This document shows, in pieces, positions 37,884 through 53,278 of a stretch of 64,000 bases of DNA. This DNA comes from Haladaptatus cibarius D43. Lineage in GTDB: Archaea > Halobacteriota > Halobacteria > Halobacteriales > Haladaptataceae. The position numbers and the translations under genes were made by a program. The DNA is taken from positions 1,294,082-1,358,081 of the forward strand of contig NZ_JDTH01000002.1 in the NCBI RefSeq assembly GCF_000710615.1. Direction: 5' to 3'. The notes below the pieces were generated by a model. It had not been told where the DNA came from. It ran no database searches and saw only the letters and a list, made by a program, of their open reading frames with translations. The first letter of the stretch is position 1; the number at the start of each line of letters is the position of its first letter.

Positions 37884-38129
37884 CTAATTGCTATCGGTGT
37901 TTACGTCAGCCATTGACCATCGGTAGATGTTTCGCGTGATATATAATCCGACTGTTAGAACTAGAACACCTGCAATGACCGCTGCTAAATTTAATTCGGT
38001 GGTGGTCGTTCCGTCTGGTGCCCAAGAGGGGTTTGGAGAATTCCACAATAAATACATCTCATACGTCATCAAGACTGTGAATAGGAAGCTCATTCCAGCA
38101 ACAACGATTCCTGCCCGACGATATTCCAT
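37884..38129 (-). CDS. Small two-helix membrane protein
   Basis: 81 residues with two hydrophobic helices (near 8-28 and 47-66) separated by a short polar loop (NSPNPSWAPDG). Codons are AT-richer than in the flanking genes. It is the last member of a same-strand group of four small membrane or secreted proteins. No known family. Immunity or assembly for the cassette is only a guess. Confidence 0.6.
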   Translation of the reverse strand: MEYRRAGIVVAGMSFLFTVLMTYEMYLLWNSPNPSWAPDGTTTTELNLAAVIAGVLVLTVGLYITRNIYRWSMADVNTDSN

Positions 38130-38239
38130 TAATAATTGACAATGTCCTTAGGACGTGAATATCTTTCCTATCCTTTCACGTAAAATCTATTTTACTAGTT
38201 GAAATAGTAGATATGTTAGAATACTATTGTCTTCTTGGC

Positions 38240-39247
38240 TTATGCACCCACACTACCACCAGTACCGATATTGATAATGGCTGTAATGATAAATAATATT
38301 ACAAAGATAGCTGCGGATTTTATTAGCGGCCATGCAGCATCAAGGAAAACAGGAACATCTTGTACGAAGTTGTCTGAAATATCGTCCTTAATTCTGTTTT
38401 CAAGTTCGGCATCTGTCGGAGGCGCACTAAAGCACTCCTTATGACACTCATCGTTTTCAGTTCCACCCCAGTATAGACAATTCGTCGTCGGATTCCAACC
38501 TGCCCACATTCCAATAGAAATGCTACCAACTTGACTTCCCTCGGAAAATGATACACCACTAAACTGCGCTCCAACTAATGGAACTCCGTATCCATTACAA
38601 TCAGTGAAGTATTTTGGCTGAATTAGTGTTGTCTCTGTGCATGCTTGACCCCAGCTGGCAGTATCACATGATTGAATCGGATCATGATGAAGATCTCGGT
38701 CATCCATCCAATCCGGGTCATCAGTAGAAACTCCACCACTACATTGAGTGCTGACGTCTGTTGTGCAGATAACTGGGCCACTTTCTACACCAATATTTTC
38801 AGCTTCATGCTCATTACTAGATTTTTTTGAAATGACACCATCTGGGAATTTCTCCTCCTCAACTTGTCTTGTGCGGGTTATGGTACCATCAGTATCTATT
38901 GTCAACTCATGAATGACACCATTCTGCCAATACTCTGCTGTTAATGTGCTATTCCACGAAATATTCACAACAGATCCATCTTCTGGATCAGTTAGTTGAA
39001 TGATCTCGTTTGCGGGTTCATCAACGCTGGCGGTTCCAGTCGCAAGATATAGACAGAGAGAATTCTGTTCAGCTGCTGTAAATAGTAATGTTTCTTGTTT
39101 CTTATTTGCTGCAGCTTCTAAGGATAACTTTTTAATCGGCTCTTCAAATTCTCCACTTGCAGTTGTAATTGTTGCGAAACTGCCTGTAGTTAGTGCTCCA
39201 ATGCCAAATCGTTTCAGAAAGTCTCGTTCATTAACCTCATCATATAT
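38240..39247 (-). CDS. Cys-rich secreted or membrane protein without a normal start codon
   Basis: The frame is open from 39247 to the stop at 38240 (335 codons), but it contains no ATG and its first GTG is at 38968. Upstream of that GTG the frame still encodes a good signal-peptide-like segment, ERDFLKRFGIGALTTGSF. ATG codons for MMRLMNE lie one frame away and stop after nine codons. A one-base shift near 39225-39240, or an unusual ATA start, would explain this. The mature part holds about ten Cys between residues near 170 and 275 and ends in a hydrophobic helix (IFVILFIITAIINIG). Lower GC than the chromosome. The family is unknown. Confidence 0.6.
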   Translation of the reverse strand: MYDEVNERDFLKRFGIGALTTGSFATITTASGEFEEPIKKLSLEAAANKKQETLLFTAAEQNSLCLYLATGTASVDEPANEIIQLTDPEDGSVVNISWNSTLTAEYWQNGVIHELTIDTDGTITRTRQVEEEKFPDGVISKKSSNEHEAENIGVESGPVICTTDVSTQCSGGVSTDDPDWMDDRDLHHDPIQSCDTASWGQACTETTLIQPKYFTDCNGYGVPLVGAQFSGVSFSEGSQVGSISIGMWAGWNPTTNCLYWGGTENDECHKECFSAPPTDAELENRIKDDISDNFVQDVPVFLDAAWPLIKSAAIFVILFIITAIINIGTGGSVGA

Positions 39248-39450
39248 CTAGTCACATAAGTATAAAATAATACTTATATTAAATTTTATATTAATATGCT
39301 TAAAATGAAAAATTCACATTCGTATTGATATAGTATACAAATGAGTTTGGGTAAAAATCCTACAAAATGAGTATCAGGATCTATAGTGGCGCAACCTTCT
39401 TCAATTTTCTAATCAGATTCATTCATATCTAAAATATTTGTCTATTTATG

Positions 39451-39813
39451 TCATGAGAAAGTATACAAGCCAACGAGAACAGCAGTTCGACTGAAAAGGT
39501 ACGTAATAGCATATCCCATGCTTAATTGCGGCCAATAGATGATCAGAATTACGTACGTTCCAAAAGTAAGTGAAAACCCAACCATTCTTGCAGGGATCGA
39601 AGAAACCATTAATCCTCTTATAATTTCAAACTGTTGCATGAGCAAGGGAACACCCCCACCGAGAAAGGTACCCATTAAGAGTCCAGCATAGGCAGGATGT
39701 TTCGGCGATAGTGTTCCAGTACGGAAGAACTGCGTAATATCACCTATATCGCCTTTCAAATAAGCAAGCAGGACGAAGATGATGAGAATTCCACTAAGTT
39801 GAATAAAATTCAC
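39451..39813 (-). CDS. Four-helix membrane protein of the AT-rich cassette
   Basis: 120 residues from GTG 39813, with four hydrophobic segments (near 5-20, 43-60, 75-95 and 98-117). The starting GTG lies 2 bases after the stop of the preceding small gene, implying one transcript. No motif recognised. It could be an immunity or transport component. Confidence 0.6.
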   Translation of the reverse strand: MNFIQLSGILIIFVLLAYLKGDIGDITQFFRTGTLSPKHPAYAGLLMGTFLGGGVPLLMQQFEIIRGLMVSSIPARMVGFSLTFGTYVILIIYWPQLSMGYAITYLFSRTAVLVGLYTFS

Positions 39814-39815
39814 TA

Positions 39816-40016
39816 CTATGAGGAATTTTCTGTTAAATTAAATTCCGTATCCGAAAACTGACTCACACTCAAAAAGAAAGCACCTCCAAGAATTGTGGTC
39901 GCCACACCAATCATAGCTCCAAAAACATCGTTAGTAATCATACTAATTGTTAATAGGATAACACCGAGTGGAACTAATGTAGCAGACAGAATTCGTCTGA
40001 GCCGTTCTCTGTTCAT
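39816..40016 (-). CDS. Small two-helix membrane protein, first gene of the cassette
   Basis: 66 residues from ATG 40016, chosen because the sequence then begins MNRERLRRIL, a basic membrane-insertion start. Two helices (near 8-28 and 32-50) precede a polar tail. Like its neighbours it is AT-rich. No family recognised. Confidence 0.6.
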   Translation of the reverse strand: MNRERLRRILSATLVPLGVILLTISMITNDVFGAMIGVATTILGGAFFLSVSQFSDTEFNLTENSS

Positions 40017-40362
40017 ACTTTTCCCGTGGAAGATATGATATGAATATATTCGGTTCTGACCGTATCGAATCTTGAAAATAGTAATAATTGAAATAGAGTA
40101 CGATAGAATGTGTTCCAACCAATTTATTATCCAGGACTAATTAGCATCCACCAACATTATTAGTAGATTTTTGAGAGGTGCCAAATCCAATATTAGCAGT
40201 CGGAGTAGAAAATGGATTTCTCCTGACGCCATAGCGAATAAGGAAGCTATTCAGTATGCAGTCGCCTTCTCATGTCGGAGTGACATTCCACGATCCAACC
40301 CGAGATCAGATCAGACCATCACTTGTAAAAGTTTAAATTAAAAAAGCAGACCACTTTGCGCC
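40017..40362. other. Intergenic region before the pilus ATPase
   Basis: 346 bases, AT-rich, holding the divergent promoters of the small membrane cassette and the pilus ATPase. TTTAAATTA at 40332-40340 lies 23-31 bases before the ATPase ATG, so that transcript is probably leaderless. I see no RNA gene or ORF of coding character. Confidence 0.5.
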
Positions 40363-42567
40363 ATGGCCAACGCGCATTCGCTTCACACTACCACTACCGA
40401 CTGCAACACCCCCGAAACAGTTCCGCCACCAATCCCACCAGACGACTCCGACGCGTGGTACGCCCCCGACGTGCGCGACCAGCGCGAACTCCATCCCGGC
40501 GTCGTCGCCACGATTCGAGAAACCGACGACGGCTTTCGCTACGACGTTCGAACCCCTGCACTCGGCGCGAGGGACGAACGCGCCCTCGTCAAGATTCGAG
40601 AGCACTTTGCAACTGCAAATCTCCGCCGACCGCTGACGCGCGAAGGCGCAATCGAGTGTGTCGAACGCGGGTTCGACCCGAAATATCGCCGGGCTATCGA
40701 CCGTCTCACCAACCTCTCGCAGGCGGGTCGGCGGCGCGTCGAGTACCACGCGCTGGCCGAACTGCTCTGTCTCGGAAAGCTGACGCCCCTCGCGCTGGAC
40801 GACCACATCGAAGTCGCCGACGCCGCGGGCGACCAGCTCGTCGTCCACACGGAAAACTACGCACCTGCAGACACCGACCTCTCCGCCGACGCCGATTATC
40901 TCGCCCGGTTCGCCAGCGAGCGTATCGAGACGCACACGGTCGCGTTCGGAGAGTTTCGAATCCCGGTCGTCGTCTATCAGGAACACCTGCTCGGCACCGA
41001 CTCCTTTGCGACGAAGTACGCCGTCCTCGAACCGAATCTCCTGCCGGACGACGACCGACTCATCGAGGAGTGCAAAGAGCGAATCTGGGAGACGAACGTC
41101 GGCGGCGTCGTTGATGACCGTTCCTCGTTCGTCCGTGAACACGCCAGACAGTTTCTATCGCGGCGACTCACGGCCAGAAACACGCGGGCGTGGCTCGACG
41201 CCGCCCGGTATCGCGTTCGAACCGCACTGGCGGAGTACGACCTCGCGATTCCGCCGGTTGACCACCGATTTTCCGACGATAGGCTCTCGGATTTGGTGTA
41301 CTACGTCCTGCGAGACTACGTTGGCCACGGGAAGATGACGATTCCGATTCGGGACGGATTGTTAGAGGACATCGAAGCCAACCGCGTCGGTGAGCGCATC
41401 AAGGTGGTTCCGCGCGGCCGCACAATCGGTCACGGCGAGCGCATTCCGACCAACCTTGCGTTCGAAGACGAATCGGCGTTCGTCAACGTCGTCACGCAGA
41501 TGGCCGCCTCGGACGGCGTCGAACTCAACGCCAGCAACCCGAGTGCAAAGGTCAATCTCTCCCCAGACGGGGTTGCCGACGAGGAAACGATCCGCTGTGC
41601 GGTCGCTCTCCCAGTTATTTCGGAGGGCGGGCCACACATTTCGATTCGGAAACAGGCACCTGATACGATGACGCCCGTCGATTTGCTGGACGGTGGAAGC
41701 ATCTCTACGGAAATCGTCACCCTGCTCTGGCAGTTGTACGAACACCACGGCGTCGCGCTGTTTTCCGGGCCGACAGGGGTCGGGAAGACGACGCTGATGA
41801 ATGCGCATATGCCGTTCATCCCCTACCGCGACCGCCCGATCAGCATCGACGAGGGGTCGCGCGAGGTTCGACTGCCCCACGAAACTGGCGTCTCGCTTAC
41901 GACCCGTGACCACGAGAGCGACTACAAACGCGTGACGATGGCGGATTTAATGACCGAATGTAACTACCTCAATCCGGACGTGGAGGTTATCGCAGAAATC
42001 AACACGCCCGCCTCGTTCCAGACGTTCGCGGAATCGCTGAACACGGGCCACGGGTTGATTGGTACGACGCACGCCGAGAACATCGAAAAACTCGTCAATC
42101 GCGTCGTGGAGCAAGGTCTTCCCGCCTATCTTCTGCGCGAAATCGACCTCGTCGTTTTCCCGCGATACGTCGATGGCAACCGGTACGTCGGCGAACTCGT
42201 GGAGTTGGTGAACGAAGACGAGTTCGCCGAGTTGGACGGACGCTGTGGTACGGTTCGCAAGGACGGGACGACGATTCACTGGAACACGGTCGCATGGCGC
42301 GATCACGACGGCACGTTCCAACTCGACTACGACCATCCGCAGTTGGGTGATGACGAACGTGAAATCGGTTTCCGATTTTTCCGACGACTCGCAGACCGCA
42401 CCGACAGAAGCGTCGAGGAAGTCGAGACCGATTTCCACCGCAAACACGGCTACGTGCAGTATTTAGAACGCGAGGGGATGACGGATTTCGAGGAACTGTT
42501 TTCCTTCCTCGCCGACTTGCAGAACAACGAGGCGGCAACCGTGGAGCGGGCGAAGCGGGGAGTGTGA
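40363..42567 (+). CDS. Archaeal type IV pilus/secretion ATPase (VirB11/PilB-like)
   Basis: 734 residues. The C-terminal two thirds form a GspE/VirB11 ATPase: Walker A FSGPTGVGKTTLMNAH near residue 467, Walker B-like ISIDEGSREVRLP, and the His-box LNTGHGLIGTTHAEN. The N-terminal 300 residues are the acidic, all-helical region found in haloarchaeal pilus ATPases. The hexameric motor powers pilin assembly at the membrane. In haloarchaea its gene is normally followed directly by the TadC-like gene; here that partner lies 8.7 kb away. Confidence 0.92.
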   Translation: MANAHSLHTTTTDCNTPETVPPPIPPDDSDAWYAPDVRDQRELHPGVVATIRETDDGFRYDVRTPALGARDERALVKIREHFATANLRRPLTREGAIECVERGFDPKYRRAIDRLTNLSQAGRRRVEYHALAELLCLGKLTPLALDDHIEVADAAGDQLVVHTENYAPADTDLSADADYLARFASERIETHTVAFGEFRIPVVVYQEHLLGTDSFATKYAVLEPNLLPDDDRLIEECKERIWETNVGGVVDDRSSFVREHARQFLSRRLTARNTRAWLDAARYRVRTALAEYDLAIPPVDHRFSDDRLSDLVYYVLRDYVGHGKMTIPIRDGLLEDIEANRVGERIKVVPRGRTIGHGERIPTNLAFEDESAFVNVVTQMAASDGVELNASNPSAKVNLSPDGVADEETIRCAVALPVISEGGPHISIRKQAPDTMTPVDLLDGGSISTEIVTLLWQLYEHHGVALFSGPTGVGKTTLMNAHMPFIPYRDRPISIDEGSREVRLPHETGVSLTTRDHESDYKRVTMADLMTECNYLNPDVEVIAEINTPASFQTFAESLNTGHGLIGTTHAENIEKLVNRVVEQGLPAYLLREIDLVVFPRYVDGNRYVGELVELVNEDEFAELDGRCGTVRKDGTTIHWNTVAWRDHDGTFQLDYDHPQLGDDEREIGFRFFRRLADRTDRSVEEVETDFHRKHGYVQYLEREGMTDFEELFSFLADLQNNEAATVERAKRGV

Positions 42568-42722
42568 CAGCACGGAGACAAGTGCGTGCGGAAGCACCCT
42601 CGCCACGGAATATATATTCTAATATATATATTAATATTAAAATAGAACTTGATAAGGTATCCATCAACCTAGTCGCCAACAGCAGCTAACTACCCACCAA
42701 TATAAAACTGAACGAGGAACTA

Positions 42723-42730
42723 TTTATAAA
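42723..42730 (+). promoter_or_regulatory. TATA-like element for the island MFS gene
   Basis: TTTATAAA lies 28-35 bases upstream of the MFS ATG at 42758, inside a 190-base AT-rich stretch following the ATPase stop. This fits a short-leader haloarchaeal promoter and shows that the inserted genes bring their own transcription signals. Confidence 0.45.
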
Positions 42731-42757
42731 ATATAGAAAGGTAAAAGAATTAAGTGT

Positions 42758-43996
42758 ATGTGCACTGTTTCGAGTGATGTGTCTACTAAGCTTGCGCCCC
42801 TCCGAATCTCCGCATATCGAAAACTTCTCTCTTCAAACATAGTAACGACGTTCGGGTTCTGGTTTACCTACGTAGCGGCATTCGACCTCTACGTGTTTGA
42901 CGCCGGAATCGGGCCATTAGCAGTTAGTATTCTGGGCGTGAGTAGCGTCCTTCCACAAGTCATCGGCGGTCCGATTTCCGGTGTCCTCACTGACCGGTAC
43001 GACCGTCGAAATATCATCACCATATCATACCTGCTGTGTGCACCACTCGTCGGACTGCTGGTTTTCTATCAGTCGATATGGTTAGCGTATGGTGTCTTTC
43101 TCGGGACGGGGACGCTGTATGCAGTTTCACGGCCGTCTTACCGGTCGTTGATACCGCAAATCGTTCCGGACGAACAGCTCGAAGCGGCAAACGGGCTGCT
43201 CTCCAGTAGCGACTCGACTGCACAGATTGTCGGCCCGGGTATCGCTGGTGTCTTCCTCTCGTTTTTTGAGCCGACTCTCCTATTCATACTCGATGCGATC
43301 TCGTACTGTTTTGCAGCACTCATCGTCTATACGCTCTCCGTCACGGCGGTAGACAAAGAGAACGATGGTGGATTCGTCACCGAATTTCGAGATGGCCTTT
43401 CATACCTGAAACGTGCACCATTCGTGCTCTCCGTCGTCGTTCTCGGTGGTCTTATGTTCGCCGCGATAGGCGTGTTTGAAGCTATCATTCCGTATTTCCT
43501 CAGGGAAACGCTGGGTCAAAACAGTTCAATGTATAGCTTGGTACTGTTGATGATAGGAGTGGGTTCATTTTTCGGTGGACTCACGATTAGCTCGATTAAA
43601 AACCGAATCGGATACCAACTCGTGCCCGCACTGGCAGTGGTGATACTGGGCACGTCGGTGGGAGCATTCACCATCGTTCAAGGCACGCCAGCGATTGCGA
43701 TTGCCTCGGGAGCAGTCGGTGTTGCGGCCGTATGGTTCACGTCGTCCGCCTACACCACTCTTCACCGTGACCTCGATGAGTCATATCACGGTCGTATCAT
43801 CGGCGTTTTCAAATCGACAACTCGTGGGTCACAGATTATCGCAATGGCCCTCGCCGGAATTATGGTTAGTGTGGCTGGAACCGTCGTCCTCTTCAGAACG
43901 ACGATGGTCGTGTTAGTGGTTGGTGGCGTCGGCTGGGCACTCTTCGTCACACAGAAATCAGAGACACGAGCGACCAGTCCGAGCCACGACGATTGA
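42758..43996 (+). CDS. MFS exporter of the island
   Basis: 412 residues with about 12 membrane segments of the MFS_3/EntS type (ISAYRKLLSSNIVTTFGFW; ISGVLTDRYDRRNIITISYLL after helix 2). It resembles the MFS gene of the lanthipeptide locus in family, though not closely. The expected role is export of a product made by the neighbouring enzymes. Codon use is more mixed than in core genes. The kinase gene begins 28 bases after its stop. Confidence 0.85.
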   Translation: MCTVSSDVSTKLAPLRISAYRKLLSSNIVTTFGFWFTYVAAFDLYVFDAGIGPLAVSILGVSSVLPQVIGGPISGVLTDRYDRRNIITISYLLCAPLVGLLVFYQSIWLAYGVFLGTGTLYAVSRPSYRSLIPQIVPDEQLEAANGLLSSSDSTAQIVGPGIAGVFLSFFEPTLLFILDAISYCFAALIVYTLSVTAVDKENDGGFVTEFRDGLSYLKRAPFVLSVVVLGGLMFAAIGVFEAIIPYFLRETLGQNSSMYSLVLLMIGVGSFFGGLTISSIKNRIGYQLVPALAVVILGTSVGAFTIVQGTPAIAIASGAVGVAAVWFTSSAYTTLHRDLDESYHGRIIGVFKSTTRGSQIIAMALAGIMVSVAGTVVLFRTTMVVLVVGGVGWALFVTQKSETRATSPSHDD

Positions 43997-44024
43997 ACAG
44001 TATCCGTTCCAAATCAAACGAAAA

Positions 44025-44639
44025 ATGAAACACTCAAAAATAATCCTCCTTGGACTCCCCGGGGCGGGAAAGACGACATGTGCTCGCAAACTCTCTGCGG
44101 AGTTCGGACTCACCGAGTTCGATCTCGGAACCATCCTCCGAGAAAATGCAGATGTCGAAACGGCCTACGGCACTCCGGGCGAATATATGAACCGCGACGA
44201 ACTCGTTCCCGATGAACTTGTCAACGAACTCGTGTCGAAACGACTTCCTGCCGATGAGTTCGTGTTAAGCGGGTATCCGCGCACTGTAACGCAGGTCGAG
44301 CATCTCGGGACGATCACAAACGTTGGTTTCGTCTGTTTCCTCTCGGCGAGTGTAGAGGTTCTCGTCGAGCGACTTCGTAACAGACGCATCGACCCGAAAA
44401 CGGGCACCACGTATCATCTTAGGGCAAATCCACCGAAATCAGAAGCGGTTGCCAATCGGCTTGTTCAACGTCAGAGTGACCGAGAAGAACTTCTTAAACC
44501 GCGTATCGAGGCGAATCAGGAGTTGCTCGAACCGATAGTTGAACGATATCGTACTCATCCACATTTTGTAACGATAGATGCAACACGTCCCCCGGACGTG
44601 GTTTATCGAACACTCGCCGAGAAAATTGCGTCTAAATGA
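44025..44639 (+). CDS. Adenylate-kinase-like enzyme 1 (no zinc lid)
   Basis: 204 residues from ATG 44025. P-loop LLGLPGAGKTTCARKL, AMP-site-like ILRENADVETAYGTPGEYM, and GYPRT (preceded by Ser where adenylate kinases have Asp) place it in the nucleoside monophosphate kinase family. The lid is short (RIDPKTGTTYHLRANPP) and lacks zinc Cys. The core adenylate kinase is presumably encoded elsewhere, so this one is probably recruited to a pathway. It is paralogous to the gene at 47731, sharing the ILRENA-E-YGTP-EYM stretch. It phosphorylates a nucleotide or an unknown phosphate acceptor. Confidence 0.82.
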   Translation: MKHSKIILLGLPGAGKTTCARKLSAEFGLTEFDLGTILRENADVETAYGTPGEYMNRDELVPDELVNELVSKRLPADEFVLSGYPRTVTQVEHLGTITNVGFVCFLSASVEVLVERLRNRRIDPKTGTTYHLRANPPKSEAVANRLVQRQSDREELLKPRIEANQELLEPIVERYRTHPHFVTIDATRPPDVVYRTLAEKIASK

Positions 44640-44727
44640 AAGCGAGATAGATGGCCGTTTTGCTTCTCCTTATATTATACTGGCAATAATAGTACGAGCA
44701 GGAATAGTCGTTTTATCGATGTGAAAA

Positions 44728-44832
44728 CTATACTATAATTTCGGGCAGAAACAGCGAGGGAAGTATCTTATCTAAACACGCGGTGTCCCTCTGAAAATCA
44801 CTACTCAATTGGGGTATGGATGTAACTGCCAT
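44728..44832 (-). CDS. 34-residue ORF with perfect Shine-Dalgarno (candidate peptide)
   Basis: On the minus strand the ATG at 44832 begins MAVTSIPQLSSDFQ and ends FLPEIIV before TAG. GGAGGTGAT sits three bases upstream, a nine-base match to the anti-Shine-Dalgarno of archaeal 16S RNA, rare for this largely leaderless genome. A single Cys (residue 19) and several Ser/Thr are present. Its place inside a putative biosynthetic island makes a precursor or signal peptide conceivable; nothing in the residues proves it. Confidence 0.4.
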   Translation of the reverse strand: MAVTSIPQLSSDFQRDTACLDKILPSLFLPEIIV

Positions 44833-44835
44833 GCT

Positions 44836-44844
44836 ATCACCTCC
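44836..44844 (-). promoter_or_regulatory. Perfect Shine-Dalgarno sequence
   Basis: GGAGGTGAT on the minus strand, spaced 3 bases (8 from the GGAGG core end to the ATG region) before the 34-codon ORF. The length of the match makes a chance occurrence in an AT-rich spacer unlikely. Confidence 0.55.
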
Positions 44845-45081
44845 ATTGTCGTATCATTACTCCGACTTACTACAAGTTAAAACTTATGGATTAAATTTAT
44901 TTATATATTGAATTAATGTAAAAATAATATAATACTCATAGAGAAGAGAACGGTATCCGTCGACCGACTTGACCTCGCCTTGAATAAGTCGTACCTACAT
45001 TCGATTGTTACTACATCATCTACTATCACATTTTCGTTTTAATCCATCAAATATTAATTTATAGTGCTAGTTTGTACAGCT

Positions 45082-45612
45082 ATGGTTGGTTCAACGTTTA
45101 TCAGTGGAGAGACAGTAACACTTCGAACGGTCGAAGAGGACGATATCGGTTTTCTTCAGCAGTCGAGAAACGAGCCGGGATTCCGACGGACACTCCGGTT
45201 CACAAAACCAACAAACCGGAAACAGATGCGGTCGTTTTTCGAAAACACCGTCGTTGGTGACGACGCCAGTGTCAATCTATTAGTCTCCGTCGAGGGAACA
45301 CCAGTTGGTGCAGTAAACGTGTTCAATATTGACCAGCGCTGCGGCGAAATCAGCTACTGGATTCTCCCGGAGCACCGCCAAAATGGCACCGCAACTGAAG
45401 CGATTTCGCTTCTGCTTGATTTTGCGTACGACACATTGGATCTTCACCGCGTGTACGCTCAAACGATAGCATCGAACGAAGCTTCGAAGGCATTCCTCGA
45501 AGCGCTCGGTTTCACTCTCGAAGGGACGCTAAGAGAACACGAGTTCGTTCAAGGTGAGCGACAGGACACACACTTTTACGGACTTCTCGCGCCGGAGTGG
45601 CGAAACCAGTGA
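45082..45612 (+). CDS. GNAT acetyltransferase, RimJ/RimL type
   Basis: 176 residues from ATG 45082 (a GTG at 45064 would add six). The RimJ/L pattern is clear: VTLRTVEEDDIGFLQQSRNEP, the acetyl-CoA loop WILPEHRQNGTATEAISLLLDFAYDTLDLHRVYAQTI, and ASNEASKAFLEALGFTLEGTLREHEFVQGERQDTHFYGLL. Relatives acetylate protein N-termini, antibiotics or peptide-nucleotides (self-resistance). In this setting modification or self-protection is plausible. It is convergent with the nucleotidyltransferase gene, with a 30-base gap. Confidence 0.9.
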   Translation: MVGSTFISGETVTLRTVEEDDIGFLQQSRNEPGFRRTLRFTKPTNRKQMRSFFENTVVGDDASVNLLVSVEGTPVGAVNVFNIDQRCGEISYWILPEHRQNGTATEAISLLLDFAYDTLDLHRVYAQTIASNEASKAFLEALGFTLEGTLREHEFVQGERQDTHFYGLLAPEWRNQ

Positions 45613-45642
45613 CGCTCGTCTATCGAAGGTAGACGTACACCG

Positions 45643-46215
45643 TCAGTCAGAACAAGTTGTCTGAATGAGACTCGATTCAGTGTTCCAAAGCTCCCGTATT
45701 CGGGATACTGCGCCAATGGATTCGAGTTCGTCCGCTACTGCATTCGGAACGTCATCTTTCCACTCGGCATTCGTCGCTATCTTTTTTCTCACTTCGTATC
45801 CACTGATATCCCTCTCTTTTCGCTTCGTTTTTACCTCCTTCCCGTGCCGTCGAAGGCGTGAAACTTTTGTTTCGTGCCATTCTTCCAGCATTAATATGAA
45901 GTGGTAGACGTCTTGTGGGATATAGTACTGCCAAAGTTCGGGGCGATTTATCGGGAACGGAGAAATACTAAACGCCGTCTCTATATTGGACTGTTCGATA
46001 GCCATCTCGATAATCCGTTTTCGTTCGTAGTATTTCAACGGATTATGGGCCAACTTGTGGCGTTTCGGGTCGTCCACTTCTTCGGCGATGTGTGATGGGT
46101 CAGCGTTCGTTATCCCGATAATCAACTGGTCACAGTTGTTGCTGGCCCATTTGGCATATTCGAGATGGCCGTCATGGAATGGCTGAAACCGACCGTGGAT
46201 GTGACCGACGCTCAT
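45643..46215 (-). CDS. NMN-adenylyltransferase-like nucleotidyltransferase
   Basis: 190 residues. The cytidylyl/adenylyltransferase signature GRFQPFHDGHLEYAKWA (HxGH at residues 15-18) opens the protein, and ISGYEVRKKI near residue 145 matches the second ISSTxxR-type motif. This is the archaeal NadM family, which transfers a nucleotidyl group to a phosphorylated acceptor. An insertion of basic residues (RLRRHGKEVKTKRKERD) precedes the second motif. Its start overlaps the stop of the SelD-like gene by four bases, so the two are coupled and probably act in sequence. It is likely not the housekeeping NadM. Confidence 0.85.
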   Translation of the reverse strand: MSVGHIHGRFQPFHDGHLEYAKWASNNCDQLIIGITNADPSHIAEEVDDPKRHKLAHNPLKYYERKRIIEMAIEQSNIETAFSISPFPINRPELWQYYIPQDVYHFILMLEEWHETKVSRLRRHGKEVKTKRKERDISGYEVRKKIATNAEWKDDVPNAVADELESIGAVSRIRELWNTESSLIQTTCSD

Positions 46216-47552
46216 ACATCAACCCGTGCCAACCACTCAACGTACTTCGCGGCGTTGAGTCCGTCATCCACGGAAATGGTGTCTCCCTGCCAGTCGTGGA
46301 ACTGTCCGAGAACGGCGGGGTCGGCATCCTCCGCGTTCGCCAATCGTTGCTGTATTTCCCGGATTACGTTCGGTGCCGCAACGATAGCTATCGGCCCGTT
46401 TGTTTCAACGGTTATGTCCGGCAGAATCCAACGGTCGCGTATTTTATCAATCAGTTGTTTGTTTAGTATTGGAATGTCCGTAAGGTGGAACGTCTTGTTG
46501 CTTTTTTCGGCAGGACGCCGCATTCCTCCGATTCCGGGGCCGGAGATGTCCGATGCAAATTTTATATGGCGAGCGGAATCGAACTCCGCTCCACTTTCGG
46601 GGCAGAACTCGGAAATGATTTTTGCGACGTGTTTGTGGTCTGCGCTAAGCGATTCGAACGCCTGTTCACGGACGTTCGGAGAAGTTCCCTCTTCGATGCC
46701 GAGGCGGTACATCGCAAGTCCACCGCATGGTCTATGAATCAAAATCATATCGTCTGATTCGACTCGATTCTCTCCCGTCGGTGGTTCGTGATTCCCAGAG
46801 GCCGTCGCAGTCGCACCAAACTGCCACCCATTACCGTCGTGTCGCAGAATCTCTGGTGTGAGGACGGTGACTGAGTCAGAAACAGCTTGTTCAAACCACT
46901 TCGAAACCAGCTCGGTGGACAACTCCCCGTCTTTGGGGGCCGCAACAATTGGTCGCACCTCACGATTTTGGTACGCACCCATGGAATAACAGTCATTGAG
47001 TGAATGATTGGCCGCGATTGCGGCCTGTTTTTCGCCCGAGAGATGTGGAAACGCGTGAACAATATCGATGTTTCCAGCGACGAACCCTGATTCACGTGAA
47101 CCGACTGGTTCGATATGTTCGAACCACTGCATCGGGTCTGTCGAATTAGCTATCTGAATGGAGTGGGCTTTCCCGATGGAGACTTGCCCAAGGTCAGAGA
47201 GGGACTGGTAGGCGTCGCCAACTCGCTCTGCGAACGTCTCGATGTCCGTTCCAAGTTGTTTGTCAGCCAATGTCGCCGTCAATGTCCAAACTTGATTATC
47301 GGCTTCGTCGTAGTTCGTATCCGGAGCAGATTTTTCAAGTCCCTCTTTGGTGACTGAACGTCGGTACTCCGTCGTATTCGGGAGAATCGCCGCTTCCGAT
47401 GTCGGTGGGAGTTCGACTGGACACCCATCTAAGTAGTCTTTGATTTCATCGATAGCTGGATAAACCACCTTTCGAAGAGATGTTTTCCCACCACAACCAC
47501 AAATCGAACCGATGGTCGATATTTTTTTCGTTGAGGTCACACCATTACCCAT
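46212..47552 (-). CDS. SelD/AIR-synthase superfamily enzyme
   Basis: 446 residues. The N-terminal Gly/Cys loop ICGCGGK (Cys18, Cys20, Lys23) resembles the catalytic GCGCK loop of selenophosphate synthetase, keeping the Cys-to-Lys spacing. ANHSLNDCYSMGA (182-193) matches the SelD NALSDVYAMG element, and the C-terminal half has the AIR-synthase C fold with repeated Gly (DISGPGIGG). The family transfers ATP phosphate to selenide, amides or carbamoyl groups. Sequence is far from normal SelD, and no selenium genes are seen here, so the acceptor is unknown. It is coupled to the downstream nucleotidyltransferase and has its own TATA-like TTTATAAG about 30 bases upstream. Confidence 0.7.
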   Translation of the reverse strand: MGNGVTSTKKISTIGSICGCGGKTSLRKVVYPAIDEIKDYLDGCPVELPPTSEAAILPNTTEYRRSVTKEGLEKSAPDTNYDEADNQVWTLTATLADKQLGTDIETFAERVGDAYQSLSDLGQVSIGKAHSIQIANSTDPMQWFEHIEPVGSRESGFVAGNIDIVHAFPHLSGEKQAAIAANHSLNDCYSMGAYQNREVRPIVAAPKDGELSTELVSKWFEQAVSDSVTVLTPEILRHDGNGWQFGATATASGNHEPPTGENRVESDDMILIHRPCGGLAMYRLGIEEGTSPNVREQAFESLSADHKHVAKIISEFCPESGAEFDSARHIKFASDISGPGIGGMRRPAEKSNKTFHLTDIPILNKQLIDKIRDRWILPDITVETNGPIAIVAAPNVIREIQQRLANAEDADPAVLGQFHDWQGDTISVDDGLNAAKYVEWLARVDV

Positions 47553-47730
47553 GATAACATATATTATGATTAAAGAACTTATAAATATTATGATTCCATA
47601 GGTTATATATTATATAAAGGTGGCCAGAACAATAGTTCCGTGCTGGCTGTGTATCGTATTGGTGTGACAAATTCGCCAACAGATAGGCTGTCTTATGGCT
47701 CTATATTCGTCTGTTGTCAATGCTGAAGGC

Positions 47731-48369
47731 TCACAACCTGTCGTCCGGAATGTACTCTTCGACCACTTCGAAGAAGTCCTCCCAAACGGCCTCGTGAGGG
47801 CGTTCCGCGTCAACGACGACGACATCGTCACTGTACTGTTCAACCACTGGAACAGTCTTCTGTTCGTATTCTTGGATTCGCTGTCGAATGATGTCCTCGC
47901 TGTTGTCGTCGTCGCGTTCGGTTAGTTTCGCCCCACAGAACTTACATTCTCCCGGCGTGTCTGGCGGACGATATTCTTTGTGATAGGAATCTCCACAGTT
48001 ACTGCATATCTTTCGGTCTAACAGACGATAGAATGTCGTCTCGTCGCTGACCTCCATGAGGACGACAACATCCAAACCAGTGATAATTTCGGAGAAATTC
48101 TCCAGTTGATTCATGGTTCGCGGGTAGCCGTCGAGCATAAAGTGGTCAACCTCGGACAGTTCCTTTTCGACTATCGAGTTAATCATCTCGTCGGGAACGT
48201 ACTTCCCTTCGTCCATGTACTCCTTCGGTGTCCCGTAGGGAGTCTCTAACTCAGCATTTTCTCGAAGTATCTGGCCGGTTACGATGTGTGGGATACCATA
48301 CCTGCGCTCTAGTTTCTTACACTGAACATTTTTTCCCGCGCCCAATGGGCCGTATATCGCTGCGTTCAT
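47731..48369 (-). CDS. Adenylate-kinase-like enzyme 2 (zinc lid)
   Basis: 212 residues. The nucleoside monophosphate kinase fold is shown by IYGPLGAGKN (the P-loop Ser/Thr is replaced by Asn), TGQILRENAELETPYGTPKEYM and DGYPRT. The lid has four Cys (ICSNCGDSYHKEY and GECKFCG), the zinc-binding type. It is paralogous to the kinase at 44025, which lacks the zinc lid and keeps a normal P-loop Thr. The divergence suggests different nucleotide or phospho-acceptor roles. It lies between the 653-residue protein and the SelD-like gene on the same strand. Confidence 0.85.
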   Translation of the reverse strand: MNAAIYGPLGAGKNVQCKKLERRYGIPHIVTGQILRENAELETPYGTPKEYMDEGKYVPDEMINSIVEKELSEVDHFMLDGYPRTMNQLENFSEIITGLDVVVLMEVSDETTFYRLLDRKICSNCGDSYHKEYRPPDTPGECKFCGAKLTERDDDNSEDIIRQRIQEYEQKTVPVVEQYSDDVVVVDAERPHEAVWEDFFEVVEEYIPDDRL

Positions 48370-48504
48370 CTCTTATACTATAAACAGTAAAAACGCATAT
48401 AAATTACTTTCTCCTCAAATTTAGTTATAAGTAGCAATTACAGATATAGTAGTACGTAGTAAATATTTGAAATAAGGTGCATTTTACTTCTCCAGTATTT
48501 GGGT

Positions 48505-50466
48505 CTATTGACGGTACGGAGGCATGTAGCCCGTTTTCTCGCCGACCAACATTGTTGTTCCAATTTCGGAGTAGACATCGAGATTGGAAACGACGTGCGT
48601 CGTGATGTAATACTGATTCTCTTCGAGTGCCGCGGCATCGACCTCAAAGGTTACGTGAGCGGTTTCACCGGGTTCAATCGTCCGTTCGGTGATCTGAGGG
48701 TTGAATAGCTGCTTTCCGTTTCGATTCGTATCCCCGTACTGCCAGATAGTGGGATAAATCACGACTTCGGATGTGACATCTCGGTTGTTTTCGAACGTGA
48801 CTGTGAACTCACGCCGGGAGTCCGTCGTGTCGAATAGTTCCCCCTCAACAACCGGACAAACGGGGTCGGTTTCTCCCGGTGTTGTTGGAACGTCGAACAG
48901 TTGAGCACACTGCGGACATTCTCCAAGTGCACGATGAGCCTCGCCGGAGAGGTCGGACACCTGTTTGATAAAGACTGGACGGCCACAGTGAATGCAGTCT
49001 TGGTCAGCAACCAATGTATCGTCGTCAATAGCTCGACTAACATACTGACCGACGATGGAAGAACCGTTTTCAAGTGGCTCTAACAGTCCCTTCGATAGCT
49101 CATCGATCTGGTCGTAAAGGTCGTTGAGAATCGAACGTGATTGGTGGTGCGTATCGAGATTGAGTCGCTCACGTGTGATAGTGTGGTGTGTGTCGAGGAG
49201 GTCGTTCTGGAACGTTTGTGCGGTTTCCGCAAGGGAATCGCCGAGCATTCCAAGCCGCCGGTGTCGGTCAAGCGTGTCGAGACAATCGAACATTGTCTGG
49301 AGTTTTTCGTCTCCAACCATCGTATCGCTGACGACGAGTTCGAACTGTTCGGACTCCATTTGACGACCGGCGAACAGTAGCACGCGAAGCGTATCGTTTT
49401 CTTGGAATGCAAGGTAGTATCGGTCACCGACACCGTCAGTTGGAGCACTGGTTCGGAGATAGTATCGGTCATCCGTTTCAGGGAGTTCTGAAAGCGGAAT
49501 CCGGAAATCACCGATATATCCATCGACCGTAACTTCCATCCGTGTTTCACCCTCGCTCTGATAAATCGAGCAGTCCGACGGCGGTTCCTTCTCGGGGTCA
49601 CCGCCCGCCTCGGGATGACCGAAGGGAATGTACGCATCTGCTTGAATATCGTTCAGGGTGGAGAACTCGTTGAGGAGATAACATCGCTCAATTACATCGT
49701 AGCCTGCTTTGATGAGACTGTGATGTAACAACGGTTCGATAGGGTCTATCGGAGAAATACGATATCCACCGATGAGAGACGTTCCATTCACGAGCATTCC
49801 GGTTCCGACGTGAACTGGAAGTCCGGATGGGCCGTTACCTATCATCGACGCACAAGAGGCCATAAACGAGTGGTCAACGGTGAACTCATCGACGGGAATG
49901 AGTTCGCCGTCATTTAGCGGGCAGTTCCGTTCGCCGTTTTGGACACACTGGGGTTGCCGACCGTCGTATGAGTCCGGGTCAACGCGAGTCGGATAGCCAC
50001 AGAGGATTCCGCCGTTGAGGAAGATGTGAAGCGGAAAGCCACCGATATGCATCGACAGGGATGACAATCCCTTTTCTTCGAGCGAAGCTAGTTGCTCGGC
50101 GGTGTCGTTAGCTGAGCGGGTTATAACCGTCTCTCCCGAACCGGGTTCGTACTGCTTTGGGGGACTTTTTAAGAGTAGACAGTCTTCTTCAGCGTCTCGT
50201 TCTTCCCGTCGGTAGAGATCAGTTGCGAGCGACGGAGTAAAGCCTGTTATAACGCTAAAGCACCCCTGCGACGGCCCATTGTCGGACAGGCGACGCTGAA
50301 GTGCAAGCAGTATCGACTCATCGAGGTCGTCAGAAGACCCTACGTAGATAACCGGCTCTTCGTCTCCAATATCGTCAAGTTCAGTGATAACTTCCTCATT
50401 TCTGTCCGATGCGATCTGTTCTGCTGATTCAAAATATTCGCCGTCGTTCTCAGATAATACTACCAT
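48505..50466 (-). CDS. 653-residue multidomain protein: possible clan CD protease plus zinc ribbon
   Basis: No family is firmly recognised. Residues 130-260 contain SLSMHIGGFPLHIFLNGGILCG (His140) and later HSFMASCASMIG (Cys205). This H-G...SC arrangement resembles gingipain/caspase/CHAT-type clan CD proteases. Residues 415-480 are a predicted coiled coil rich in Leu/His/Asp. CIHCG and CPQC (near 491-521) form a zinc ribbon. The last 110 residues are an Ig-like beta domain (REFTVTFENNRDVTSEVV). No signal peptide or membrane helix. As the first gene on the minus strand of the island it may process or sense the product. Confidence 0.6.
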   Translation of the reverse strand: MVVLSENDGEYFESAEQIASDRNEEVITELDDIGDEEPVIYVGSSDDLDESILLALQRRLSDNGPSQGCFSVITGFTPSLATDLYRREERDAEEDCLLLKSPPKQYEPGSGETVITRSANDTAEQLASLEEKGLSSLSMHIGGFPLHIFLNGGILCGYPTRVDPDSYDGRQPQCVQNGERNCPLNDGELIPVDEFTVDHSFMASCASMIGNGPSGLPVHVGTGMLVNGTSLIGGYRISPIDPIEPLLHHSLIKAGYDVIERCYLLNEFSTLNDIQADAYIPFGHPEAGGDPEKEPPSDCSIYQSEGETRMEVTVDGYIGDFRIPLSELPETDDRYYLRTSAPTDGVGDRYYLAFQENDTLRVLLFAGRQMESEQFELVVSDTMVGDEKLQTMFDCLDTLDRHRRLGMLGDSLAETAQTFQNDLLDTHHTITRERLNLDTHHQSRSILNDLYDQIDELSKGLLEPLENGSSIVGQYVSRAIDDDTLVADQDCIHCGRPVFIKQVSDLSGEAHRALGECPQCAQLFDVPTTPGETDPVCPVVEGELFDTTDSRREFTVTFENNRDVTSEVVIYPTIWQYGDTNRNGKQLFNPQITERTIEPGETAHVTFEVDAAALEENQYYITTHVVSNLDVYSEIGTTMLVGEKTGYMPPYRQ

Positions 50467-50565
50467 GAAGAAAATAAAATACTACAGGTATACAAATGAT
50501 TCGTTTCTACAAACGGTGACAGAACAGCGGTGAAAGATAGTATAATTTCGCAAATCCATATATAG

Positions 50566-51089
50566 ATTAAATATCGCGCCATTCGATATACCGCACGACA
50601 ATTCCTGTTTCGTCTTCGGATACACCAACCCAGATACCGACGAGGCGATGTCCGCAAGCGGTTACAACGGCGGCTTGAGAGGGTTGTACGGAACCAATAT
50701 TGACAGTCTCTGTAGTAATCGTCGAGGAGAGGAGATTCGAGCGGACAACGACGATTCGTTGTCCGTTAGTCGTGCAGGGAATGGAGCGAAGATACCTCGT
50801 CACGGGAAGATACTATTCTAGTTTTCAGGTGAACGGAACCGGTTCCCAGTCCCGTCCAGCGCCCCAAAATCCCACGACCAACCGTGATGTCCGCGGTGGT
50901 AGGCTGTCCCGCAAACAGTCCTTCGACGGCAGTCCGGACGAATACAGCGCCGACTTCGATCCAGTAGAAGGTCAACAATGCAAGTATGTCCCAGTCGAAC
51001 GCGACAACACCGACAACCGGCATCAGATTCACTAACAGTAAACCTACCGCCTCGGCGCAGTTGTTCTCGGATTTATTTTCCACGTTCAT
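50566..51089 (-). pseudogene. Degenerate membrane-protein remnants at the island edge
   Basis: The ORF from 51089 begins with a helix pair, VGLLLVNLMPVVGVVAFDWDILALLTFYWIEVG, which looks like the start of the haloarchaeal DUF6498 membrane family. After about 65 residues it loses hydrophobic character and ends at 50766, far shorter than the family. A second overlapping ORF (50567-50803) ends in VGIWVGVSEDETGIVVRYIEWRDI and has a different frame. Together they look like a truncated, frameshifted gene, consistent with the end of an insertion or deletion. Confidence 0.5.
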
Positions 51090-51298
51090 AATTACGGTAA
51101 GAGATGTGGTGTTCGGATGAAGGTCAGCAGTTGACTAACCTCACTCTCGTGGGTTGCGTTGCTCAACAGACCGCGAGTTCCACGGACGTCGTTGAATTTG
51201 ACATATCCCCTCCGCGTCAGGATAGAAGCCTGCGCTACTCTACGTGAAAATACAGTCATAGATTCATAGAGTTTAAATCAAATAACACGGGTATCTCG

Positions 51299-51331: not shown

Positions 51332-53278
51332 ATGAGCACCATTACGGAGTCAAACAGCGCTGAAACACGTCCAGAAGATTCACCACCTGCAGAGAATTTT
51401 CACCGCTCGTCCTCCCTCGGCATTCTCGACCGCGCACTGTACGCGCTGTTCTCGCGCCACGCCGACCGGAGCCGCCACGACCGCGACCGGAAACGCTACC
51501 GCGCAACCGACGTGAACGCCAGTTTCGACGTGTTTCTCTCCCGAACCTACGGCCTTTCGTGGCTCGTCTTTCTCGCTACGTTCTGCTGGGCGTTTCTGGT
51601 GACGGTGGCGGTTCCGGATTCCGTCCTCGCTAGTCTGGCGTCGTTTTTCCACGACGGACTCCCACTGCTGGATAGGGTTCGGGTACCGAACGTTCCGCGG
51701 ATGTACGCCGCAACCGGCCTCGCTGTGGCCTGTGCAACCATCAGCAAGCGAACGGTGGTGTGGGTCGGCGGACTGTATCTCGGGTGGTCGGCCAGTGCAC
51801 GTCGGTCGAACATCGAGCGAACACTGCCCGGTACGGTTCGATACCTTCGCGCGCTTTCGTCCGGAAGCGACGACAAGACGGCCATGCTCCGGAAAGTCGC
51901 CGACCGAAAAGAATCCTACGGCGACACCGCCGTCGCGTTTCGGAAGGTGCTGAACAAGGCGGCGCTCACAGGAAGCGTGGACGACGGCCTGCGAATCGTC
52001 GCCCGAGATACGCCGTCACGCGACGTTCTTGCGCCATTTCTGCTCAAATTCCGTGAGCACGCGGAACAGGGGCCGGATGCACTCGAACAGTACCTCCAGA
52101 TGGAGAGTCGGATGTTGAGCCATCGACAGTCTCGAAGCCGCGAGCAGGCAGAAGGATTTCTCGAACTCATCGCCGAAATGTTCATCGTCCTGCTTGTTAT
52201 CCCGGCTCTCTTGGTTATCGTACTAACCGTTATGAGCGTTCTCGCACCGGGATTGGCGGCACCTGCGCCACCGCCGTTCGGCTGGCTATCGATGCGAGCA
52301 CTCATCATCTACGGCAGTGGCGCGTTCATCCTCGTCGTCGGTGCTGGCGCGGCGGTCGTGATGTCCTCGCTTCGACCCGCCGATCAATCGGCCCCGAAGC
52401 ATTCCTGCTCGTCACATGGCATCGAACTGTTCAAAACGCTGTTGGTTAATCCGGCAAACACCGCGGTGTTGGCGGTTCCGCTGGCGCTCTGTGTCGGTGG
52501 ATTGCTCTGGATGCTCGATTATACACCCGTAGATACGGTGTTGCTCTCTTACGTCGCGTTCGCCCTTCCGGTCGGCCTCGTCTCCGTCCGGCGGTCACGA
52601 ATCGACGACGCGAAAGACCGCGAAATCAAGGATTTCGTTCATGCGGTGTCTGCTCACGTCGGATTAGGTCGTCCGTTTTCGGCCGCAGTTGAGCGCGTTG
52701 CGCGCGACGTCGATATGGGGGCGCTTCAATCGGACGTCACGGATCTCGCGTTCAATGTGAACCTCACGAGTCGAGACGGAGATTTGCGCCGAGATGCACT
52801 CACTCGATTCGTCGAAAACGTCGGGACGCCGATGGCAGACCAGACCATCGGACTCGTCACCGGAACGCTGGACGTCGGCGGTGATACAGAAACGGTTTTC
52901 GACACTCTACAGGTCGAGATTGGCAGATTGTATCATCAAAAGAAAGCACTTCGGTCGAACATGCTGGTGTACGTGGTCGTTGGCTGGACGACTGCGCTCC
53001 TCATTATCGGCATCATGATTGCCGTGAACGCCTACGTTCTCGACAGTTTCTCGCAGTTGTCGGCGGTGTCCAACTCGAATGCGGGGTTAGCTCTCGACCC
53101 GAACGCGGTACAACCGGCACGTGACCGACACCGGTTCTACGTCGTCACGCAGACGACGATGCTCGCCTGTGGTTGGTTCGCCGGATACGCGAGTCGAGGG
53201 TTCTACGAAGCACTGCTTCACTCGGCGGCCCTCGTCACAGTTGCCTATTTCGTTTTCGCAGGGGCGGGAATGATATGA
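51332..53278 (+). CDS. Type IV pilus assembly membrane protein (TadC/PilC-like)
   Basis: 648 residues. Two T2SSF repeats are visible: the first around RTLPGTVRYLRALSSGSDDKTAMLRKVADRK (near 162-192), the second around DAKDREIKDFVHAVSAHVGLGRPFSAAVERVARD (near 428-462). Each is followed by paired membrane helices; extra helices lie near 55-80 and 110-135. It forms the platform for the pilus ATPase. The gene for that ATPase is at 40363, separated by the island. The stop overlaps the next start by four bases. Confidence 0.93.
   Translation: MSTITESNSAETRPEDSPPAENFHRSSSLGILDRALYALFSRHADRSRHDRDRKRYRATDVNASFDVFLSRTYGLSWLVFLATFCWAFLVTVAVPDSVLASLASFFHDGLPLLDRVRVPNVPRMYAATGLAVACATISKRTVVWVGGLYLGWSASARRSNIERTLPGTVRYLRALSSGSDDKTAMLRKVADRKESYGDTAVAFRKVLNKAALTGSVDDGLRIVARDTPSRDVLAPFLLKFREHAEQGPDALEQYLQMESRMLSHRQSRSREQAEGFLELIAEMFIVLLVIPALLVIVLTVMSVLAPGLAAPAPPPFGWLSMRALIIYGSGAFILVVGAGAAVVMSSLRPADQSAPKHSCSSHGIELFKTLLVNPANTAVLAVPLALCVGGLLWMLDYTPVDTVLLSYVAFALPVGLVSVRRSRIDDAKDREIKDFVHAVSAHVGLGRPFSAAVERVARDVDMGALQSDVTDLAFNVNLTSRDGDLRRDALTRFVENVGTPMADQTIGLVTGTLDVGGDTETVFDTLQVEIGRLYHQKKALRSNMLVYVVVGWTTALLIIGIMIAVNAYVLDSFSQLSAVSNSNAGLALDPNAVQPARDRHRFYVVTQTTMLACGWFAGYASRGFYEALLHSAALVTVAYFVFAGAGMI

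Follow-up and report, generated by a model that had tools for sequence, protein, structure and literature searches.

Gene content of the insert

The 64,000-nucleotide stretch of the Haladaptatus cibarius D43 genome analyzed here (contig NZ_JDTH01000002.1, positions 1,294,082 to 1,358,081), referred to below as the window, carries an 8.7-kb insert (42568..51267, no strand) between a pilB-like gene (40363-42567, + strand) and a pilC-like gene (51332-53278, + strand). The central part of this insert is occupied by two overlapping genes, one coding for a SelD-like ATP-dependent enzyme (SelDL) and the other for a NadM-like nucleotidyltransferase (NadML), which are the main subject of this work. The + strand of the insert encodes a predicted major facilitator superfamily (MFS) exporter, followed by the adenylate-kinase-like protein ADK1 and a GNAT-type acetyltransferase. 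The genes on the − strand are, in the order of transcription, those for a 653-residue protein, the adenylate kinase ADK2, SelDL, and NadML. All seven genes listed in the initial annotation of this DNA were recovered in place, and all but the one coding for the 653-residue protein had matches in Pfam or NCBIfam. The only other product of the insert is a short DUF6498 protein.

The initial annotation placed these genes in an insert, and the comparison with related genomes agrees with it. In genome G557, whose PilC is 96% identical to that of the window, the pilB and pilC genes directly follow each other, the aligned stretches being separated by ∼50 bp where the window has 8.7 kb. This genome, the nearest of the same-genus relatives, has the site empty; the 8.7-kb block is a recent insertion in the pilus operon. 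The pilB and pilC genes are also nearly contiguous in G325, G554, and G556, and the GC content of the insert is 0.496, against ∼0.57 to 0.61 for most of the window. The pilB-pilC site appears to act as a hot spot for insertions: in G560, a 5.3-kb insertion lies within pilB. The pilB-pilC gap of G558 (L104:12650-16759 after reverse complementing) contains a different 4.4-kb cargo with two genes that, by eye, appear to encode secreted hydrolase-like proteins. No repeats resembling an element boundary were found at the ends of the insert. A second low-GC block (37900-40320, GC 0.37 to 0.42), with small membrane-type open reading frames (ORFs), spans 2.5 kb in the window versus 0.6 kb in G557.

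Distribution and linkage of the SelDL-NadML pair

The counts given in this work rest on sets of 391 and 116 class genomes, 196 phylum genomes, and 28 family genomes; the class genomes are a sample that does not include every species. Neighborhood genes were taken from a custom ORF picker, which chose the wrong-strand frame in some high-GC loci, and the SelDL frames were accordingly re-read. Pfam was run on 30 picked neighbors and NCBIfam on 20 locus proteins; the remaining names come from reading the sequences. The scan of genome contigs yielded 4 loci, and most Halobaculum species came from the search of the genome set.

In the window, the stop codon of SelDL overlaps the start codon of NadML in the sequence ATGA, the coupling already noticed in the initial annotation. 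SelDL is encoded in 11 of the 391 class genomes, representing 4 of the 86 genera, and matches to the NadML subfamily (E ≤ 3.2e-54) are found in exactly the same 11 genomes; among the matches listed, all others are at 3.9e-16 or weaker and resemble ordinary NadM. The two genes are directly adjacent in every one of these genomes, with gaps of −4 to 52 nucleotides (nt), as measured from start codons chosen by hand. The pair is also present in two further records, Halorientalis marina and the metagenome-assembled genome (MAG) QS_5_70_17. Judged by the pair, the window has its closest named relatives in Halorientalis and Halobaculum, and SelDL was not found in 26 of the 28 family genomes, including all 8 other genomes of the same genus.

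The SelDL and NadML trees, built for 13 taxa each, largely agree. In both, the window genome (G000) and G175 form a group (support 1.00 and 0.98), as do the Halobaculum genomes (g35) and G311; the two trees place Halorientalis marina and the MAG differently, with weak support in that of NadML. The pair is rare but conserved, and its adjacency, co-inheritance, and insertion, as well as the kinship of its products, are directly seen, whereas the reactions considered below are all predicted. No described system with a SelDL-NadML pair was found in the literature searched, in line with the initial annotation, which knew of none with its larger set of genes.

The SelD-like enzyme

In NCBIfam, SelDL (46212..47552, − strand) best matches the model NF038049 (204.6 bits), which is named “SelD-related putative sulfur metabolism protein”; there is no Pfam match. 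No protein scores above the NF038049 cut-off in any of the 116 class or 196 phylum genomes. In a profile comparison with hhalign, the profile of 11 SelDL orthologues matched E. coli SelD with 78.5% probability (pairwise E 1.7e-5), and residues C18, K23, D187, and D335 of SelDL, all invariant in the alignment, are aligned with C17, K20, D91, and D227 of E. coli SelD. The Cys/Sec-x-x-Lys active-site loop of SelD is present but has an insertion of two residues ahead of the Lys. Other candidate relatives fared poorly: the probability was 0.1% for the aminoimidazole ribonucleotide (AIR) synthase PurM from E. coli, 0.3% for HypE, and 4.4% for ThiL. Judging by these comparisons, SelDL is related to SelD and not to AIR synthase, so that only the first half of the “SelD/AIR-synthase-like” label can be kept.

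One alternative is an orphan selenium route, in which SelDL would make selenophosphate and NadML would adenylylate selenophosphate or a seleno-product for some other use of selenium. SelD is the nearest characterized relative of SelDL, its Cys17 and Lys20 are retained, and orphan SelD genes are on record (PMC2276186). However, window SelDL scores just 16.3 bits with the SelD model TIGR00476 (cut-off 125), and none of the 11 genomes encodes a canonical SelD above that cut-off, the other selenium genes not having been searched. The assignment of SelDL to selenium metabolism, which the initial annotation regarded as fatal to its own proposal, has thus not materialized, and the selenium route appears quite unlikely.

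The NadM-like enzyme

NadML (45643..46215, − strand) matches the CTP_transf_like family (46 bits) and PRK01153 (81 bits), and a profile of 8 NadML members matches the archaeal nicotinamide mononucleotide (NMN) adenylyltransferase 1f9a at 3e-24. The HxGH motif is found in 7 of the 8 aligned sequences (HDEH in L074), and the Ser and Arg of the SGxxxR stretch (SGTxIR) are invariant. NadML also has invariant stretches of its own, around PFPxNRPxLW and LExWHExK, where the NMN-type enzymes differ.

An alternative explanation would be that NadML acts redundantly as an NMN adenylyltransferase and that the pair serves an NAD-related or other cofactor reaction without any new product. The profile match to the NMN adenylyltransferases and the conservation of Trp95, along with the SGxxxR motif, fit this explanation. 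However, the score of NadML with the NadM model TIGR01527 is 70.4 bits, far from the cut-off of 181.2; a second, ordinary NadM (E ≤ 1e-10) is seen, among the matches listed, in 4 of the 11 genomes; and the linkage of NadML to SelDL is perfect. Redundancy seems improbable.

A NadM-like gene whose product is 33% identical to NadML is found in two related phage contigs (L082:2186-2803 and L083:7467-8084), where no SelD-like gene adjoins it.

Lineage-specific partners of the pair

Beyond the two core genes, the neighborhoods differ between lineages. In 9 of the 11 genomes (g35 and g15, that is, Halobaculum and one other genus), a gene for a protein resembling cofactor-independent phosphoglycerate mutase (iPGM) is located directly upstream of SelDL, at a distance of 8 to 62 nt. 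The best model for the Halorientalis marina copy is apgM (239.8 bits, cut-off 320); lower in the list is NF038358, PhpG (159.8 bits, cut-off 545), which bears the NCBI name CMP-5'-phosphonoformate--3-phosphoglycerate phosphonoformyl transferase. In the loci examined, the mutase-like gene is adjoined by an acyl-CoA-dehydrogenase-like gene (tested with Pfam in one locus).

These matches raise the question of a phosphinothricin-like phosphonate pathway, with NadML in the place of PhpF, the mutase-like enzyme in the place of PhpG, and SelDL catalyzing a side reaction. Indeed, PhpF is placed in PF01467, as is NadML, and the mutase-like gene does match the PhpG model at 160 bits. However, that score is far below the cut-off of 545, the mutase-like gene is absent from both G000 and G175, and phosphoenolpyruvate (PEP) mutase, which is above its cut-off in none of the 11 genomes, has no match whatsoever in these two. 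Such a pathway is very unlikely.

In the window, the gene upstream of SelDL encodes the adenylate kinase ADK2 (47731..48369, − strand; ADK 120 bits; TIGR01351 179.8 bits, above the cut-off of 168). Its orthologue in G175, 57% identical, is also encoded beside the pair, so that both f1 genomes have an adenylate kinase at this place, while their canonical adk genes are located elsewhere (C1:839306 in G000 and C1:2496324 in G175). NadML is followed in G175 by a gene for a DHH-DHHA2 protein, whose best model is the Mn-dependent pyrophosphatase (162 bits, cut-off 283). The SelDL region of that genome (G175:C3; L016, L037) also contains, within ∼25 kb, genes for a methionine adenosyltransferase, an amidohydrolase of the adenosine/thioadenosine deaminase type, a methyltransferase, a shikimate dehydrogenase, and a MATE exporter.

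Cargo genes and the 653-residue protein family

The remaining genes of the insert show a different pattern. The MFS exporter (42758..43996, + strand) matches MFS_1 (131 bits, 5.5e-38) and scores 173 bits with TIGR00900 (cut-off 319.6). ADK1 (44025..44639, + strand; ADK 94 bits, 1.1e-26), whose ATG at position 44025 lies 28 nt past the MFS stop codon, reaches 154.4 bits with TIGR01351, less than the cut-off of 168; it retains the P-loop and has SGYPRT versus DGYPRT in ADK2. The GNAT acetyltransferase (45064..45612, + strand; Acetyltransf_3 85 bits, 1.3e-23) belongs to the RimL-like superfamily but scores only 39 bits with the RimL model PRK10151, far under the cut-off of 184. The short DUF6498 protein at the right end of the insert (50766..51089, − strand) has 107 residues versus the 207 positions of its model, PF20108, which it matches with 44.9 bits (cut-off 23.7) at profile positions 6 to 65 only. 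A role in anti-phage defense was rejected, as PADLOC gave nothing above weak matches.

The 653-residue protein (48505..50466, − strand) represents an unclassified haloarchaeal family with no family match and no solved structural relative; a search for viral copies found none. Its 8 homologues, found in 5 of the 391 genomes, share an invariant His147, Cys205, and a CxxC...CxxC pattern. The protease core suspected in the initial annotation found no support, as none of the 8 members matches a peptidase family. A structure model from the single sequence had a mean pLDDT (predicted local distance difference test) score of 38 and was not interpreted.

The co-occurrence of this protein with the SelDL-NadML pair, which the initial annotation proposed to look for, is confined to 2 of the 5 genomes that encode the family. 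These are the window genome and G175, where the two are likewise within ∼8 kb of each other. Further, the ORF lists examined for 9 Halobaculum-type loci include no MFS, GNAT, or 653-residue protein gene, which argues against a single pathway for all seven genes. Of the proposed phosphoryl- and nucleotidyl-transfer cluster, what endures is the SelDL-NadML pair, seen in 11 of 11 genomes; the exporter, the acetyltransferase, the second kinase, and the 653-residue protein are loose cargo that does not follow the pair. Self-protection by the acetyltransferase and the exporter, like the secondary product that the initial annotation suggested, is conjectural.

There is an even chance, in our estimate, that all seven genes are unrelated cargo of an insertion hot spot and that a shared function is limited to the pair, an explanation that is compatible with the two-step module proposed below. 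It is favored by the different cargo in the G558 pilB-pilC gap and the insertion inside pilB in G560, as well as by the failure of the 653-residue protein, MFS, and GNAT genes to track the pair. However, the ∼8-kb distance in G175 speaks for some association, and the 653-residue protein and the pair occur together in 2 genomes versus 0.14 expected (P 0.007, with kinship ignored). The link of this protein to the pair is uncertain.

Exporters are often encoded near the 653-residue protein genes: MFS exporters in the window and at the second copy in G000, MFS-like ones in G161 (by BLAST) and G175:C1 (by eye), a MATE exporter in G175:C3, and an ABC-2 permease in G004. The second G000 copy (C2:1376571-1378505, ∼18 kb beyond the window; L035:13218-18297 with L031) adjoins its own MFS gene and genes for an aminotransferase, an AglF-like nucleotidyltransferase, and a 5'-nucleotidase-like protein, beside an apparent siderophore cluster. 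In G004 and G092 (L041:9785-18915 and L042:10120-19250), the homologue is encoded next to the genes for a Peptidase_S66 (MccF-like) protein, an ABC-2 exporter, and an AsnRS-like paralogue, with an extra archaeal-type leucyl-tRNA synthetase (LeuRS) nearby that is absent in the two same-genus genomes tested. This locus resembles a biosynthetic cluster equipped with self-resistance to a LeuRS-targeting compound. It hints at a bioactive compound for the 653-residue family in the G004 lineage and says nothing firm about the window.

A possible two-step activation module

In the favored explanation, SelDL and NadML may form a two-step, ATP-driven activation module that generates a phospho- (perhaps thiophospho-) compound and then adenylylates it, a proposal put at somewhat below even probability. 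It draws on the strict linkage and largely concordant trees of the two genes, the SelD residues retained in SelDL, the thiophosphate proposal for the crenarchaeal relatives, and the adenylate kinase, pyrophosphatase-type, and mutase-like neighbors. SelDL would split ATP into AMP and inorganic phosphate (Pi), as SelD does, phosphorylating a small nucleophile at its Cys-Gly-Cys-x-Gly-Lys loop. The likeliest nucleophile would be sulfide, yielding thiophosphate. NadML could then use ATP to adenylylate the phosphate-type product of SelDL with the release of pyrophosphate (PPi).

The SelD reaction yields AMP and Pi, and that of the NMN adenylyltransferases yields PPi, so that the accessory genes can be viewed as by-product recyclers: the adjoining adenylate kinase (ADK2) of the window and G175 would recycle the AMP from SelDL, and the pyrophosphatase-type protein encoded beside NadML in G175 would remove PPi. 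In Halobaculum and the other genus, the mutase-like enzyme might transfer the activated group to an acceptor, which is the role that the name of PhpG implies for CMP-phosphonoformate. The conserved core is the pair, which reached the window together with the exporter, acetyltransferase, and 653-residue protein cargo as an insertion in the pilus operon.

A more specific version, in which SelDL makes free thiophosphate from sulfide and ATP, NadML converts it to AMP-thiophosphate (resembling ADP-beta-S), and the mutase-like transferase of Halobaculum moves the thiophosphoryl group onto a metabolite, appears rather improbable.

Several observations weigh against the two-step module. SelDL falls short of the NF038049 cut-off of 250, all the more so in the QS_5 MAG copy (122.7 bits). 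The position of SelD Asn87 is occupied by His in the window (by Asn in Halobaculum), and Asp51 and Asp68 of SelD have no reliable alignment to SelDL. The predicted structures are too poor to show an active site; the SelDL model, from 5 sequences, had a mean pLDDT of 40, and its Foldseek matches, all above E 0.001, are meaningless. As NadML retains the NMN-adenylyltransferase framework, its acceptor could still be NMN. Finally, a simple motif scan revealed no TusA/SirA-type sulfur-relay gene in any of the 13 loci (one chance match was in a 31-residue frame), and the absence of such a motif near the haloarchaeal loci weakens the link to sulfur.

Comparison with known systems

SelDL belongs to the same superfamily as SelD and shares with it the CGC...K loop and the residues corresponding to Asp91 and Asp227, but it is only ∼19 to 24% identical to the E. 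coli protein and has a long insertion in its N-terminal half. Similarly, NadML has the fold family, HxGH, and SGxxxR in common with archaeal NadM and differs from it by its own invariant stretches and its tie to SelDL. The PhpF-PhpG couple of phosphinothricin biosynthesis likewise combines a PF01467 nucleotidyltransferase with a phosphoglycerate-mutase-like enzyme (the PhpG label being that of NCBIfam), whereas here there is no PEP mutase, a SelD-like enzyme is found instead, and the mutase-like gene is missing in the window genome. In the peptide-nucleotide antibiotics of the microcin C type, MccB is a ThiF-type adenylating enzyme; none of the 9 window proteins scanned had a ThiF match.

The closest parallel is a SelD-like family that Li et al. 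(2014, PMC4210487), in the portion consulted, reported solely from Sulfolobales and Thermoproteales and proposed to act as a thiophosphate synthase. NF038049 appears to derive from that family, to which it is linked by the name “HyperS” and by its matches in Sulfolobus. As far as the accessible parts of the reviews go, two of them restate, for these crenarchaeal relatives, either the proposed thiophosphate synthesis or the connection to sulfur, and the thiophosphate synthase is still treated as speculation in reviews up to 2026. SelDL is homologous to this family, is archaeal too, and keeps the catalytic Cys and Lys. However, the crenarchaeal proteins have SirA, Prx-like, and DSR genes as partners, whereas SelDL is haloarchaeal, has NadML as its partner, and scores under the family cut-off. 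The pair supplies the thiophosphate hypothesis with a partner enzyme and with a two-gene halophile system in named Halobaculum species; therefore, the thiophosphate question can be tested by expressing two enzymes. According to the consulted part of a 2019 review, natural products with phosphorus-sulfur (P-S) bonds are exceedingly rare, and the known small molecules of this kind number just two, which are related. If the thiophosphate-nucleotide reading is true, the pair would provide the first enzymatic pathway leading to a small P-S metabolite via a nucleotide-activated intermediate.

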